NCBI RefSeq assembly: GCF_000144695.1 | Contig: NC_014378.1 | Location: 124,001 to 188,000, forward strand | Source: Acetohalobium arabaticum DSM 5501 | GTDB taxonomy: Bacteria > Bacillota > Halanaerobiia > Halobacteroidales > Acetohalobiaceae | DNA length: 64,000 bases | Reading direction: 5' to 3' | Shown here: positions 8,884-33,137 of the stretch, in pieces | Numbering within the stretch: position 1 is the stretch's first letter | Layout of the letters: each line of letters begins with the position of its first letter | Translations under genes and position numbers: made by a program | The notes under the pieces: model-generated | What the model saw: the letters and a program-made list of their open reading frames with translations, nothing else | What the model was told of the DNA's origin: nothing | The model's database searches: none

Positions 8884-8908
8884 CAAAACTTAATAATTAA
8901 ATTATAAT
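8880..8908 (+). promoter_or_regulatory. Consensus promoter overlapping a stop codon, upstream of greA
   Basis: TTGACA (8880-8885), 17-base spacer, TATAAT (8903-8908): perfect consensus. The TGA inside the -35 box is the stop codon of the preceding dehydrogenase gene. First of two tandem promoters for greA-lysS. Confidence 0.78.
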
Positions 8909-8939
8909 ATTTTATTAATAAGTTGAATGATTAAATTTC

Positions 8940-8968
8940 TTGACAGTATTTTATATTTTTGAAATAAT
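8940..8968 (+). promoter_or_regulatory. Second promoter upstream of greA
   Basis: TTGACA (8940-8945), 17-base spacer, AATAAT (8963-8968). It lies 60 bases after the first promoter and 64 bases before the greA start. Confidence 0.7.
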
Positions 8969-9031
8969 TAAGTGTGGTTAGTATGGATTTATTTCAATTT
9001 TATTAAAATTTAGAAAGAGGGAGCGAAACTT

Positions 9032-9505
9032 ATGGCTGAGAAAGTAATTTTAACAAAAGAAGGGCTTAATAAACTGGAAGAAGAATTATCATATTTGAAA
9101 GGTACTAAACGGAGAGAAGTTGCTAAACGGATTAAACAGGCATTAGAATTTGGTGATATCAGCGAAAATTCAGAGTATGATGATGCTAAAAATGAACAGG
9201 CCTTTGTAGAGGGTAGAATTAAAGAAATTGAGAATATGTTGAATAATGCTGAAGTAATTAATGAAGACGAAGTAGAAACTACAGAGGTTAATATTGGAAC
9301 AACTGTTACAATTAGGGACTTGGATACTGAGGAAGAGTATAATTATAAAATAGTCGGAACTACAGAAGCAGACCCGTTTGAGAATAAAATTTCGAATGAT
9401 TCTCCTGTAGGAAACGCATTACTCGGTCATAAGATAGGCGAGGAAGTGGAAATCGATGCTCCAGCAGGAAAGATTGTTTATAAGATTTTAGCAATTCAGA
9501 AGTAA
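9032..9505 (+). CDS. greA: Transcription elongation factor GreA
   Basis: A 157-residue protein that enters the RNA polymerase secondary channel and stimulates cleavage of backtracked RNA. The N-terminal coiled coil (residues 1-75) has the acidic tip with GDISENSEYDDAKNEQ, including the conserved Asp and Glu; the C-terminal FKBP-like domain ends with GKIVYKILAI. Length and motifs are standard. RBS AGAGGGAG. It is followed by lysS after 57 bases, a pairing conserved in Firmicutes. Confidence 0.97.
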   Translation: MAEKVILTKEGLNKLEEELSYLKGTKRREVAKRIKQALEFGDISENSEYDDAKNEQAFVEGRIKEIENMLNNAEVINEDEVETTEVNIGTTVTIRDLDTEEEYNYKIVGTTEADPFENKISNDSPVGNALLGHKIGEEVEIDAPAGKIVYKILAIQK

Positions 9506-9562
9506 ATATTGATTTATTAAATTGTAAAATTATATAAAGTAGTACTTGGAGGTTGATATTTA

Positions 9563-11038
9563 ATGGAAGAAGAACAGGACTTAAATGATTTGATGTTAGA
9601 ACGAAGAAAGAAATTAGATATGCTAGAAGAAAAAGGAATCACAGTTTATGGAGAAAAATATGAACGAAGCCATGTTGCTCAAGAAGTTATAGATAATTTT
9701 GAGGAATTAAAGGAAGATGAAACAGAGGTTAGATTGACCGGTAGATTAATGGCAGTTAGAGAACATGGTAAAGCCAGTTTTGCTGATATAGAGGATATGT
9801 CAGGGCGGATTCAGCTGTATGCTAAAGAGGATAATTTAGGTGAAGATCTGTATGAATTATTTATGTCTCTGGATATTGGTGATCAGATTGGAATAGAAGG
9901 ACTTTTATTTAAAACAGGACGCGGTGAGGTTACTGTCCAGATTGAGAATTTTGAATTATTGGCTAAAGCGTTGCGTCCGCTGCCGGAAAAATGGCATGGT
10001 CTAAAAGATGTTGAAATGAGGTATAGACAGAGATATGTGGATTTAATAGTTAATTCCGATGTAAGAAATACTTTTGTTTTACGGAGTAAGATAATTCATA
10101 CTATGCGTGAGCATTTAGAGGAAGAAGACTTTTTAGAAGTTGAAACTCCTTTGATGCATCCTATTGCTGGCGGGGCTGAGGCAAGGCCTTTTGTTACACA
10201 TCATAATGCCTTAGATATGGATCTTTATCTACGGATTGCTCCGGAGTTATACTTAAAGCGGTTGATTGTAGGCGGTTTTGAAAAAGTTTTTGAAATCGGT
10301 AAAAACTTGCGAAATGAAGGTATTTCCACTAAACATAATCCTGAATTTACTTCAATGGAATTATACCAGGCAAATGCTGATTATGAAGATATGATGGAGA
10401 TTACTGAAAGTGTAATTGTTAATATTGCCCAAGAAGTATTGGGTACATTAGAAATTGAATATGATGGACAAGAAATTGATTTAAGTCCAAGCTGGACAAG
10501 GATGACAATGAGAGAAGCTATTAATGAATATGCGGGAGTTGACTTTTCTGAAGTTGATGATTTCAAGACAGCACAAAAGTTAGCCGAGGATCATGGGGTA
10601 GACTATGAAGAGATTACTTCTGTCGGAGAACTTATTAATGAGTTCTTTGAAGAGTTTGTAGAGGATGAGTTGATTCAACCAACCTTTATTACCGAATATC
10701 CAATTGAAGTTTCGCCTTTAGCTAAGCGGAAGCCTGAAGATTCAGACTTTACAGAGAGATTTGAATTATTTGTTGCTGGAAATGAATTAGCTAATGCTTT
10801 TTCAGAGTTGAATGATCCTATTGATCAAAAGCAACGATTTAAGGAACAGATGGAACAACGAGAAGCAGGTGATGATGAGGCTCATATGATGGATTATGAT
10901 TATATTAGAGCTTTGGAATATGGAATGCCTCCTACGGGAGGATTAGGAATTGGTATTGATAGGTTAGTTATGTTATTAACGGATTCTACTTCCATTAGAG
11001 ATGTGATTCTCTTTCCACATATGAGGCCCGAACAATAA
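9563..11038 (+). CDS. lysS: Lysine-tRNA ligase, class II
   Basis: A 491-residue enzyme charging tRNA-Lys. An N-terminal OB-fold anticodon-binding domain (about residues 55-150, with [20 protein letters not shown]) is followed by the class II core: motif 2 [13 protein letters not shown] and motif 3 [13 protein letters not shown] near the end. Length agrees with the bacterial family. The ATG has GGAGG upstream. The sequence is rich in Asp/Glu. An intrinsic terminator closes the operon. A matching tRNA-Lys(TTT) gene lies at 19414. Confidence 0.97.
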
Positions 11039-29311: not shown

Positions 29312-30004
29312 ATGGAATCTATAACTGCTATTATTCCTGCTGCTGGGCAGGGGAAGCGGATGAAGAGTAAGTTGAATAAGCAGTATCTTTCTTTATTGGA
29401 TAAACCGGTTTTGGCCCATACTGTAGAAGTATTTCAGAATTGTGATCTGATTACTGAAATTATTGTTGTGGTTAAAGAGGACGAAATAGATTATTGCCGG
29501 CGGAAAGTAATTGAAAAGTATAATTATAATAAAGTCAAGGCTCTTATCAGAGGAGGGCAGAGTAGACAGAAGTCGGTTCACAATGGGCTGCAGTCAGTTG
29601 ATAATGCTGACTATGTCTTGATTCATGATGGAGCTAGACCGTTGCTGACTGAAGATATGCTGTGTAGAGCTGTAGACCAGGTAAAGGATTACAAAGCAGT
29701 AGGGGTAGCAGTGCCTGTAAAGGATACAATCAAAAGAATAGATAATGATGGCTATGTAGCAGAGACTCCTGTTCGAGATAAACTCTGGGCCATTCAGACC
29801 CCTCAGGCTTTTGAATATAGTTTGGTGTCTGAAGCTTATAATAAAGCAATGAAGGAAGGTATCAGCGGAACAGATACTTCAATATTAGTTGAAAGATTAG
29901 GCCAAAAAGTTAAATTGATAAGAGGGAGTTATGAGAATTTGAAGATAACTACTCCTGAAGACTTAATCAATGCCGAGGCAATTATTAAAAGGAGGCAGCA
30001 ATGA
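29312..30004 (+). CDS. ispD: 2-C-methyl-D-erythritol 4-phosphate cytidylyltransferase
   Basis: A 230-residue MEP-pathway enzyme joining CTP and methylerythritol phosphate. IIPAAGQGKRMKSKLNKQYL is recognised through its parts AAGQGKRM and NKQYL; VLIHDGARPL, VKDTIKR and TPQAF are further signatures. Full length. Its stop overlaps the ispF start by 4 bases (ATGA type), so both are translated together. MEP pathway genes are typical of Firmicutes anaerobes. Confidence 0.96.
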   Translation: MESITAIIPAAGQGKRMKSKLNKQYLSLLDKPVLAHTVEVFQNCDLITEIIVVVKEDEIDYCRRKVIEKYNYNKVKALIRGGQSRQKSVHNGLQSVDNADYVLIHDGARPLLTEDMLCRAVDQVKDYKAVGVAVPVKDTIKRIDNDGYVAETPVRDKLWAIQTPQAFEYSLVSEAYNKAMKEGISGTDTSILVERLGQKVKLIRGSYENLKITTPEDLINAEAIIKRRQQ

Positions 30005-30483
30005 GAGTTGGAATCGGTTATGATGTTCATCAATTAATTAGTGGTGAAGATTTAATCTTAGGAGGCATCAAAATAGATCACAGTTCTGGCTTAAAAGGCC
30101 ATTCTGATGCTGATGTATTATTACATGCAGTGATGGATGCTATGTTAGGGGCTATTGGCGCCGGGGATATAGGAAAGCATTTTCCGGATTCAGATCCAGC
30201 CTATGAAGGAATTTCTAGTTTGAAGCTTTTATCAGAAGTTAATTCTTTATTAACTAAGCAAGGGTATTCTATAATTAATATAGATGTTACTATTATTGCC
30301 CAAAAGCCTAAATTAGCTTCTTATTTAGAAAAAATGGAAAAAAGGATAGCTGAAGTATTGGATATATCTTTAACTAAAATTAATTTAAAAGCTACTACGA
30401 CAGAAGGATTAGGGTATATAGGAAATGAAGCAGGGATTGCAGCCCAAGCTATAGTCAGCTTAGAATCAGCAGGGTATGAGTAG
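30001..30483 (+). CDS. ispF: 2-C-methyl-D-erythritol 2,4-cyclodiphosphate synthase
   Basis: A 160-residue trimeric enzyme acting after IspE in isoprenoid synthesis. GIGYDVHQ supplies the metal-binding Asp8 and His10; GHSDADVLLHAVMDA supplies the second His and the catalytic Asp region; the C-terminal TTEGLGYIGN loop is conserved. Full length; RBS GGAGG lies inside the ispD end. Confidence 0.97.
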   Translation: MRVGIGYDVHQLISGEDLILGGIKIDHSSGLKGHSDADVLLHAVMDAMLGAIGAGDIGKHFPDSDPAYEGISSLKLLSEVNSLLTKQGYSIINIDVTIIAQKPKLASYLEKMEKRIAEVLDISLTKINLKATTTEGLGYIGNEAGIAAQAIVSLESAGYE

Positions 30484-30501
30484 GAAGAAGGGGTGTTAGC
30501 T

Positions 30502-31275
30502 ATGATAGTTAAAGACATAATGATTAAAGATGTAATTACAGTTAATGAGAATGTAACTATTTCAGAAGCAGAAAGAATTATGACTGTTAATGATATTGGT
30601 AGACTGATTGTCGAAGATGATCTAGGAAAAGTAGTAGGAATGATCACTGATGGTGACTTAGTTAAAGAGCGTAATTTTGATCTTAAGGTCAAGGAAATAA
30701 TGACTACTGATTTGATTAAGGGGTATCAGACACAGAGTATTCAGGAAGTGGCTCAGATAGTTTCTGATAATCAGATCGGCGGTGTACCTATCTTTGATGA
30801 AACAGATAATTTGGTAGGGATAGTAACTGTTGATGATATTGTATCAGGTTATATGAAGGAAGAGAATACTGCTAAAATAAGTCCTGAAAGTTCAGCTATT
30901 TATCTATCTATGACTAGAAGTAGAGAGTATGAGAATTACTGGCTGGATAAAATCAATGGCTATGGCTACAAAGCCGCTATTACTCAAACGGGAGCCAATG
31001 CTGAAGATTTACCTATTAAATTAAGAGAGAGTGCAACAGTAGCAGCTATTGCCCGTAAAGTAATTAAGGAACGGGCTAAAGAGAAGGTAGCCGTTTCTAA
31101 TGCTGTAAGGGATGCTTATAATCAGTTAAACCTGATTAATCCTGGTTTAGGCGGTGGGTTTAAAGTTGCCATTGTTAGAGGAGAAGGAAAGGTAGCTGTT
31201 TCTGCTTTTGGTAAGTTCGGCCATGCATTAGTTGATGGTCCGGAACAGATTGCTTTAGGTACGAGCATAATCTAA
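30502..31275 (+). CDS. CBS-pair protein fused to a HutP-like antiterminator domain
   Basis: A 257-residue protein. Residues 1-118 are two CBS domains (VKDIMIKDVITV..., VKEIMTTDLIKG...), the kind that bind adenine nucleotides. Residues 128-257 match HutP, the histidine-dependent RNA-binding antiterminator: LSMTRSRE, AAITQTGA, NPGLGGGFKVAIVRGEG and the terminal GPEQIALG. The metal-ligand histidines of Bacillus HutP (His73, His77, His138) align with Asn200, Asp204 and Gln249. No hut gene is nearby; it sits between ispF and gltX. Start is ATG 30502; an upstream GTG lies in the ribosome binding site. Domain calls are from motifs; function is inferred only. Confidence 0.82.
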   Translation: MIVKDIMIKDVITVNENVTISEAERIMTVNDIGRLIVEDDLGKVVGMITDGDLVKERNFDLKVKEIMTTDLIKGYQTQSIQEVAQIVSDNQIGGVPIFDETDNLVGIVTVDDIVSGYMKEENTAKISPESSAIYLSMTRSREYENYWLDKINGYGYKAAITQTGANAEDLPIKLRESATVAAIARKVIKERAKEKVAVSNAVRDAYNQLNLINPGLGGGFKVAIVRGEGKVAVSAFGKFGHALVDGPEQIALGTSII

Positions 31276-31295: not shown

Positions 31296-31324
31296 TTGTA
31301 ATAATTAGCAATTTGCTTTATAAT
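31296..31324 (+). promoter_or_regulatory. Promoter of gltX
   Basis: TTGTAA (31296-31301), 17-base spacer, TATAAT (31319-31324), 65 bases before the gltX start. Confidence 0.68.
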
Positions 31325-31389: not shown

Positions 31390-32856
31390 ATGAGTGATAT
31401 TAGAGTAAGATTTGCACCAAGTCCTACGGGACAGATTCATATTGGTAATATTCGTACTGCTTTATTTACCTGGTTATATGCTAGAAAGCATAACGGAACT
31501 ACAGTCTTAAGGATTGAAGATACTGATCAGGAACGTTCTACGTCTGAATTTGAAGAGATTATTCTGCAGGAAACAGACTGGCTCGGCCTGGATTGGGATG
31601 AAGGTGTGCGGGCTGGCGGTGATTATGGTCCATATCGTCAGAGTGATAGGCTTGATATATATGATAAATACATAGATAGGTTAATCGAAGAAGATAAAGC
31701 TTACTACTGTTATTGTACTGACGAAGAATTGGAGCAAATGAGAGAAGAGGCAAAAGCTAAAGGCAAACCGCCTAAGTATAACGGAAGATGTCGTAATTTA
31801 TCTGAAGAAGAAAGAAAAGAATTAGAAGCTGAAGGAAGAGAGCCTGCTGTTAGATTCAAGATGCCTACGGAAGAAATAAAGATTGTAGTTAATGATCTAG
31901 TTCATGGTGAGGTAGAGTTTAGCAGTGAAGTTTTAGATGATTTTGTGATTGTAAAGTCGGATGGACTACCGACTTATAACTTTGCAGTAGTGATTGATGA
32001 TCATTTAATGGAAATTAGCCATGTGATCCGTGGAGAGGACCATCTGTCCAATACTCCCAAGCAGCAGTTGATTTATGATGCTTTAGATTGGGAAATGCCT
32101 GAATTTGGTCATCTACCGATGATTCTAGGTGAGGATAAATCTAAGTTAAGCAAACGGAGTGGAGAAGCCTATGTTTATGTTAGTGAATACCGCCAAAAAG
32201 GTTATCTCCCGGAAGCATTGATTAACTTTTTAGCCTTATTGGGTTGGTCTTCTGCTGATGATGAAGAATTATTTACTGTAGAAGAAATTATAGATAACTT
32301 TTCAATGGAGAGAGTAAATAATAGCCCATCAGTTTTTGATGTAGAGAAGTTAAATTGGATGAATGGACATCATATTAGAGAGTCTGAGCTGGATAGAATA
32401 GTAGACTTAGCAATTCCTTATCTGCAGGAAGCAGGTTATATTGCTGATGAGCTAAGTGATGAGGAGTATAACTATGTAGCCCAAATAGTTGATGTAGTCC
32501 GCGATTCACTGGATTATGTAGCCCAGATTACGGACCATGTAGATATCTTCTTTGGTGAATTGGAATATGAAAACAAAGAAGAAGTTATAGACTGTTTTCA
32601 GCAGGAGGATGTTGATTTAGTACTGGAGACTTTAAAGGACCGCTTAGCTGTATTAGATGATTATAGTCCGGATTCGGTTTTAGAAGAAATGAGGGCTATT
32701 TTGAATGATTTACCGGTTGGAGGCAGACTCTTTTATCATCCTACTCGCTATGCCTTGACTGGCAAGGGATCAGGACCTGAATTATATCAAGTAGTTTCTA
32801 TTCTAGGTAAGGAAGAAACCATTAATCGACTTGATAAAGCCCTTAATTTAGTTTAA
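31390..32856 (+). CDS. gltX: Glutamate-tRNA ligase
   Basis: A 488-residue class I synthetase. RFAPSPTGQIHIGNIRTALF holds the HIGH motif; the second active-site motif is KLSKRSG. A zinc-type segment YCYCTDEE/YNGRC (CxC...C) lies near residue 110. An alpha-helical anticodon-binding domain ends the protein. It charges tRNA-Glu (gene at 18960), possibly tRNA-Gln as well, since many Firmicutes use the transamidation route. RBS GGAAGGGG. Confidence 0.96.
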   Translation: MSDIRVRFAPSPTGQIHIGNIRTALFTWLYARKHNGTTVLRIEDTDQERSTSEFEEIILQETDWLGLDWDEGVRAGGDYGPYRQSDRLDIYDKYIDRLIEEDKAYYCYCTDEELEQMREEAKAKGKPPKYNGRCRNLSEEERKELEAEGREPAVRFKMPTEEIKIVVNDLVHGEVEFSSEVLDDFVIVKSDGLPTYNFAVVIDDHLMEISHVIRGEDHLSNTPKQQLIYDALDWEMPEFGHLPMILGEDKSKLSKRSGEAYVYVSEYRQKGYLPEALINFLALLGWSSADDEELFTVEEIIDNFSMERVNNSPSVFDVEKLNWMNGHHIRESELDRIVDLAIPYLQEAGYIADELSDEEYNYVAQIVDVVRDSLDYVAQITDHVDIFFGELEYENKEEVIDCFQQEDVDLVLETLKDRLAVLDDYSPDSVLEEMRAILNDLPVGGRLFYHPTRYALTGKGSGPELYQVVSILGKEETINRLDKALNLV

Positions 32857-32889
32857 ACTTATAGTTAAATTTTAAAATTAAATACTTTA

Positions 32890-33137
32890 AAGGCTCTGAG
32901 CAGAATTAAGTAAGTCAGTAGTTTCGCCAGAGAGAAGATGCCGGAGGCTGAAAGCAGCTTCATTAAACTGACTGAATTGCATCTGTGAGCTGTATGCCCG
33001 AAGCAGTAAGTAGGGTGTAACGTTTAGTAAGCGTTAATTACTTTAAGTGAATCAGATTTGATTTCTAGTCTGATTAAACAGAGTGGAACCGCGCCCTTAC
33101 GTCTCTGTAGTTAACAGCTATGGAGTGTAAGGGATTT
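32890..33137 (+). promoter_or_regulatory. Cysteine-specific T-box leader of cysE-cysS
   Basis: A 306-base gap holding a T-box riboswitch. Stem I begins near 32897, with AGAGAAGATGCCGG (32931-32944) as the distal conserved part, and the specifier loop GAATTGCATCTG has the codon TGC at 32978-32980, cysteine. The T-box sequence GTGGAACCGCG lies at 33083-33093. A terminator stem CCCTTAC (33094-33100) / GTAAGGG (33127-33133) follows with a moderate T tail. Uncharged tRNA-Cys would pair with TGC and the T-box bulge and allow read-through. Confidence 0.9.

Follow-up and report, generated by a model that had tools for sequence, protein, structure and literature searches.

What signal and what target would a HutP domain serve once it is joined to a pair of CBS domains and lies far from any hut operon? 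The question is raised by a gene in the window (the whole stretch of 64,000 nucleotides of Acetohalobium arabaticum DSM 5501 that was analysed), for which a sequence-only reading had suggested a nucleotide-gated RNA antiterminator. The model for such a function is HutP of B. subtilis, which recognises RNA with NAG repeats once it carries L-histidine and Mg2+ (PMC7430163).

Domain layout and fold of the fusion protein

The open reading frame of the fusion was confirmed in the window, with its stop at 31275. The ATG at 30502, placed behind GGAAGAAGG, was preferred as the start over the GTG at 30493, in agreement with the start found in relatives. The gene and its domains are laid out as follows.

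30502..31275, + strand: CBS-CBS-HutP fusion gene, 257 aa; alternative GTG start at 30493
30508..30669, + strand: CBS domain 1, residues 3-56, motif G46-x-x-T49-x-x-D52
30685..30849, + strand: CBS domain 2, about residues 62-116, motif G106-x-x-T109-x-x-D112
30892..31260, + strand: HutP-family domain, residues 131-253, whose fold matches HutP crystal structures

That two CBS domains are joined to a full HutP-like domain, as had been read from the letters, was borne out by Pfam scores and by the modelled fold. Residues 131-253 scored 110 bits with the HutP model PF09021 (cut-off 25, E 1.1e-31) and the two CBS stretches 88 bits with PF00571 (cut-off 24, E 4.8e-25); both scores are far above cut-off, so that a relation to HutP is present, and the same two-domain result was repeated in five other members. 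None of the 25 NCBIfam matches listed was a HutP model, all being CBS-containing families. Since a fold search with the full-length model was swamped by CBS proteins, the HutP domain was modelled alone, with 17 relatives as input (pLDDT 89.8, pTM 0.84). Its sole Foldseek matches below E 0.001 were HutP crystal structures, with Z scores of 16.9-18.4 over 125-131 residues (VIA), and the best non-HutP match, SpoIIAB, reached a Z of 6.8, within the range of common arrangements. The HutP fold is therefore retained, as proposed. When the HutP part was used as a single query against PDB sequences, HutP was not recovered, which makes the relation a remote one, visible solely by profiles and fold.

In the CBS part, Gly and Asp of both GxxTxxD sites are kept across about 50 members, and Thr/Ser mostly so. 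At site 1, D52 is present in all 50 aligned members and residue 49 is T, S, G or V (Gly or Val in 9); at site 2, G106 and D112 are found in 51/51 members, with T or S at 109. The window protein has the nucleotide-type motif [ST]xxD at both sites (T49-D52 and T109-D112). The nearest fold matches of this half are AcuB (AMP, ADP, ATP or Ap4A bound) and MJ0100 (SAM/MTA bound). The profile of the fusion family also matched a number of recent PDB entries, titled just CBS domain-containing proteins, in their CBS part. Spread of the fusion on plasmids was considered and set aside, a search of plasmids having given CBS-part matches only.

The metal and histidine site of HutP

The three metal-contacting histidines of HutP had been aligned with Asn200, Asp204 and Gln249. 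Only the last pairing, His138 with Gln249, stood; those of His73 with Asn200 and of His77 with Asp204 were one helix turn off. MAFFT and hhalign (17 fusions against 6 true HutPs, probability 95) agree in placing His73 at Val196, His77 at Asn200, Glu81 at Asp204 and His138 at Gln249. An assignment of His138 to Pro247, given by one multiple alignment, was dropped, as the other alignment and hhalign give Gln249, with E137/E248 and G142/G253 in register. Occupancy of these positions in the 51 fusions is given below.

31087..31089, + strand: codon for Val196, which aligns with the HutP metal ligand His73; Met, Ile, Leu, Val or Ser in the family
31099..31101, + strand: codon for Asn200, which aligns with the HutP metal ligand His77; Asn in 49/51
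31111..31113, + strand: codon for Asp204, which aligns with HutP Glu81 rather than with a metal ligand; Asp in 51/51
31246..31248, + strand: codon for Gln249, which aligns with the HutP metal ligand His138; Gln in 47/51

Three additional members that have diverged further (L123-L125) carry Gln at position 200. With Val196, Asn200 and Gln249 at the triad positions, the broader point, a change of the known ligand site, was upheld. We conclude that the fusion, as aligned here, has lost the metal/histidine site of HutP, and that two positions of this site carry new, nearly fixed residues. Of the 40 residues invariant in six true HutPs, only 14 are kept in the fusion, mainly Gly/Ala together with E137. 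The clade-defining HutP residues E55, T56 and R98, the last with its LLRTVGL segment, are gone; we take E55, T56 and the R98-T99/LLRTVGL segment to be part of the RNA contact of HutP.

Distribution of the fusion and of other HutP-family proteins

HutP-family domains were found in 131 of the 199 genomes sampled from the phylum (Bacillota), about two thirds, though HutP is, to our knowledge, known essentially from one operon. Of 398 genomes sampled across the phylum, 36 carry the fusion type, with one such HutP domain per genome, CBS-fused in every readable copy. Records come from Halanaerobiia (Halanaerobium, Orenia, Natroniella, Halonatronum and others) and from Bacillota MAGs, one of them labelled Aneurinibacillus. 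In the class to which the window belongs, 42 of 47 good genomes have the fusion, and one family lacks it (f100, 0/6). A chance fusion or frame artefact, which we give virtually no credence, was refuted by 50 further loci that keep the fusion in one frame at 48-75% identity (one is cut by a contig end), and more copies occur in other genomes. The frame is open over at least 256 codons for 35 of the 36 fusions, the remaining one being cut by a contig end. Separately, one copy (G232:C113:2681-3466) contains an in-frame TAA, possibly an assembly error, in an assembly that is 77% complete.

When HutP-family domains were placed in a tree, the fusions grouped on a single branch (98/97), whose stem is 3.4 changes per site long and whose inner branches are short, and true HutP formed a separate branch (support 100/99). 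Because this tree brings long branches together, its deeper order is uncertain. On this placement the fusion represents an ancient clade distinct from true HutP.

Neighbours of the other groups were assessed by eye. True HutP with all three histidines adjoins histidine ammonia-lyase-like genes (L046, L112). The most widespread HutP-family protein of the phylum, group A, precedes chorismate mutase, aminotransferase, DAHP synthase, prephenate dehydrogenase and aroA-type genes, with a chorismate mutase-type gene directly after it in 5 of 6 loci, and is likely, on the evidence of these neighbours, a regulator of aromatic amino-acid synthesis. One copy is L134:5006-5422, or C1:1108732-1109109 in own-genome coordinates (138 aa, 169 bits, Gly-Gly-Glu for the triad). 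Stand-alone proteins that keep the three metal histidines and are not true HutP (L049, L103, L106, L107, L108, L110) are located near transporter or catabolic genes, not hut. A further group (L044, L047, L048; two of the three in the class of the window) has an Arg-Arg-His triad and a long tree branch. To judge by its triads, the HutP family has changed its ligand site several times, the fusion being one such branch to which a sensor was added.

A fixed place after ispD-ispF

The neighbours of the fusion gene in the window are the following.

29312-30004: ispD, upstream of ispF
30001..30483, + strand: ispF, immediate upstream neighbour, ending 18 nt before the ATG of the fusion gene
31296-31324: promoter-like site that would serve gltX separately, in the gap between fusion gene and gltX; such sites are no commoner here than by chance
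31390..32856, + strand: gltX, downstream neighbour

Of the placement among ispF, gltX and the radA-disA region, noted from the window, the position after ispD/ispF proved constant in loci with a readable upstream flank. The fusion gene directly follows ispD and/or ispF in all 49 survey loci with a readable upstream flank (L099, which starts inside the fusion gene, was left out), and does so too in L033, L123-L125 and L129. The cluster reads radA-disA-carD-yacL-ispD-ispF-X-gltX, X being the fusion gene, and the gap from ispF is about -83 to +54 nt when the longest possible ORF starts are used. Downstream lies usually gltX, with murA and another gene in between in some MAGs; gltX is missing from the locus in L059 and L085. 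In L059, a Halothermothrix MAG, its place behind the fusion is taken by a 288-aa ORF, DUF1002-like by eye (8907-9773). Seven MAG loci (L092, L093, L096-L098, L100, L102) lack disA, and the order of the cluster is kept with or without it. This fixed place in an old operon may reflect plain vertical inheritance.

No shared leader RNA and no Rfam family were found in the gaps around the fusion gene, that towards gltX being short, and no terminator was found on the coding strand near the gene. A T-box leader (116.6 bits) lies further on, at 32887-33109 of the window, between gltX and cysE. As had been remarked, there is no hut operon nearby: the only urocanase gene of the genome is at 2,048,850, roughly 0.58 Mb off in the shorter direction if the chromosome is circular, and 8 of 20 fusion-bearing genomes have none.

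Conservation of the two parts

Protein identities to the window proteins were taken as medians, for class members and for other lineages respectively. They were 77/68% for the HutP part and 48/31% for the CBS part, compared to 68/64% for ClpC, 70/58% for CarD, 66/57% for DisA, 58/46% for GltX, 55/52% for IspF, 51/49% for RadA and 73/65% for CysE (few loci). The HutP part is thus the most conserved protein stretch of the cluster, above ClpC, RadA, DisA and GltX, and the CBS part the least conserved outside the class. The HutP part has 55 columns that show no variation across all 51 fusion sequences, and its invariant stretches are rich in polar residues (MTRSRxYExYWL, KLRES, NPGLGGGFK, FGHALVDGxEQ). 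A near-constant binding partner is the simplest reading of this conservation, and an enzyme-like site the main alternative.

Possible functions of the fusion

From what was seen directly (domains, fold, loss of the triad, fixed position, a conserved HutP part and a fast-changing CBS part), we infer a two-part, CBS-gated regulator of the HutP fold that would act in trans, its target being a conserved RNA or ribonucleoprotein, a proposal that we favour tentatively and at somewhat below an even chance. The N-terminal CBS pair would sense an adenosine-type ligand, most likely AMP, ADP or ATP. The C-terminal domain would form an oligomer as in HutP and would bind a target near-constant across lineages, with a conserved RNA or ribonucleoprotein as the likeliest candidate. 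Expression would be set through co-transcription with ispD-ispF, and ligand occupancy of the CBS pair would alter the oligomer, hence its hold on the target. In its favour are the absence of a cis leader, the extreme conservation of the HutP part, the CBS motifs, the fold, and the single, CBS-fused copies at one cluster position, with archaeal HibA (see below) as a precedent for the logic. Against it, the invariant residues of true HutP that we take to be RNA contacts (E55, T56, R98-T99) are not kept, the HutP domain is not strongly basic (18 K+R versus 14 D+E), and so high a density of invariant polar residues would fit a small-molecule or catalytic site just as well.

That last point leads to a different function, in which the HutP-fold domain would bind no RNA and would instead be a small-molecule, catalytic or one-conserved-protein binder (for instance of a product of the neighbouring operon) under CBS control. 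The very dense invariant polar residues, the change of the triad and of most clade-defining HutP residues, and the stem of the clade towards other HutP-family groups all point this way; however, no matching enzyme fold was found, SpoIIAB being the nearest, and we consider such a function possible if somewhat unlikely. Antitermination in the manner of HutP, where a ligand-gated protein would bind a NAG-repeat-like leader RNA of some operon and block formation of a terminator, appears distinctly less probable. It has in its favour the identity of fold with HutP and the presence of HutP-family relatives at plausible target operons (histidine ammonia-lyase-like for true HutP, aromatic amino-acid for group A). 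But the fusion's own locus, where the gene is coupled to ispF, has no leader or terminator, the residues of the HutP RNA segment are missing, and the HutP part is more conserved than expected for a domain tracking a lineage-variable leader RNA. The antiterminator of the sequence-only reading is thus not supported.

CBS pairs in other proteins can bind c-di-AMP, and disA lies five genes upstream in most loci, which would suit a dedicated c-di-AMP receptor tied to the DisA of the same cluster. We regard this as very unlikely, as disA is absent from the seven loci listed above and the cluster order is indifferent to it. Of 20 genomes tested, 19 have a diadenylate cyclase, but this family is widespread in any case and the co-occurrence says little. 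A special role for c-di-AMP thus gains nothing from the neighbourhood.

Returning to the trans-acting regulator, a more far-reaching version of it, which we hold unlikely as it stands, is that one old Bacillota lineage freed the HutP fold from histidine and metal sensing and turned it into an adenylate-gated binder of a near-invariant RNA or ribonucleoprotein, such as the ribosome or a housekeeping RNA. If true, this would be a new bacterial class of energy-sensing RNA regulator, with a logic like that of archaeal HibA and a different domain.

The fusion looks like an unstudied regulator whose signal and target differ from those of HutP. It couples the HutP fold to a general nucleotide sensor, with an altered ligand site and a constraint above that of ClpC or GltX, so that two questions become testable: what other ligands and targets HutP-fold proteins have, and whether bacteria possess CBS-gated RNA binding. 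The Pfam label 'HutP' should not be equated with histidine-dependent antitermination. No description of a HutP-CBS fusion was found in the literature searched, largely without subscription papers and preprints, so that an earlier mention is possible; Pfam/InterPro may list the architecture already. The separate domains are known, and what appears new in that literature is their combination, the fixed position, the altered site and the constraint.

Comparison with known systems

HutP of B. subtilis/Geobacillus (PDB 1wpv, 1wmq, 4ok9) has the same fold over the whole C-terminal domain, at about 20% identity. Its E137 and its Gly and Ala positions are retained in the fusion, whereas E81 has become Asp, the metal triad has become Val/Met/Ile-Asn-Gln, and the LLRTVGL segment is absent. 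Unlike HutP, the fusion has an N-terminal CBS pair and no association with hut, and forms a separate clade. The stand-alone groups A (aro operon) and I (triad-keeping) share its Pfam family and domain length, but have no CBS part, a different triad (Gly-Gly-Glu in A, His-His-His in I) and other neighbourhoods.

On the CBS side, AcuB, MJ0100 and CcpN resemble the fusion in having a CBS pair beside an effector domain and an adenosine-ligand motif, with a CBS fold match at E of about 1e-12. The effector domain of these CBS-pair regulators is ACT or HTH, whereas it is HutP-like in the fusion. Replacement of HPF by the fusion was considered and rejected, HPF being present in 19 of 20 fusion-bearing genomes. 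HibA, a ribosome hibernation factor of archaea, consists of a ribosome-binding domain of the HPF/RaiA type and a CBS module with a Kd of 12 uM for AMP, and its ribosome binding was not clearly altered by AMP or ATP (PMC13324472). By analogy, HibA shows that a design combining a CBS module with RNA or ribosome binding exists. Both proteins join a CBS module to a second domain, HPF/RaiA-like in the archaeal protein and HutP-fold in the bacterial one, and ribosome binding, shown for HibA, would have its counterpart in the RNA or ribonucleoprotein binding that we predict for the fusion.
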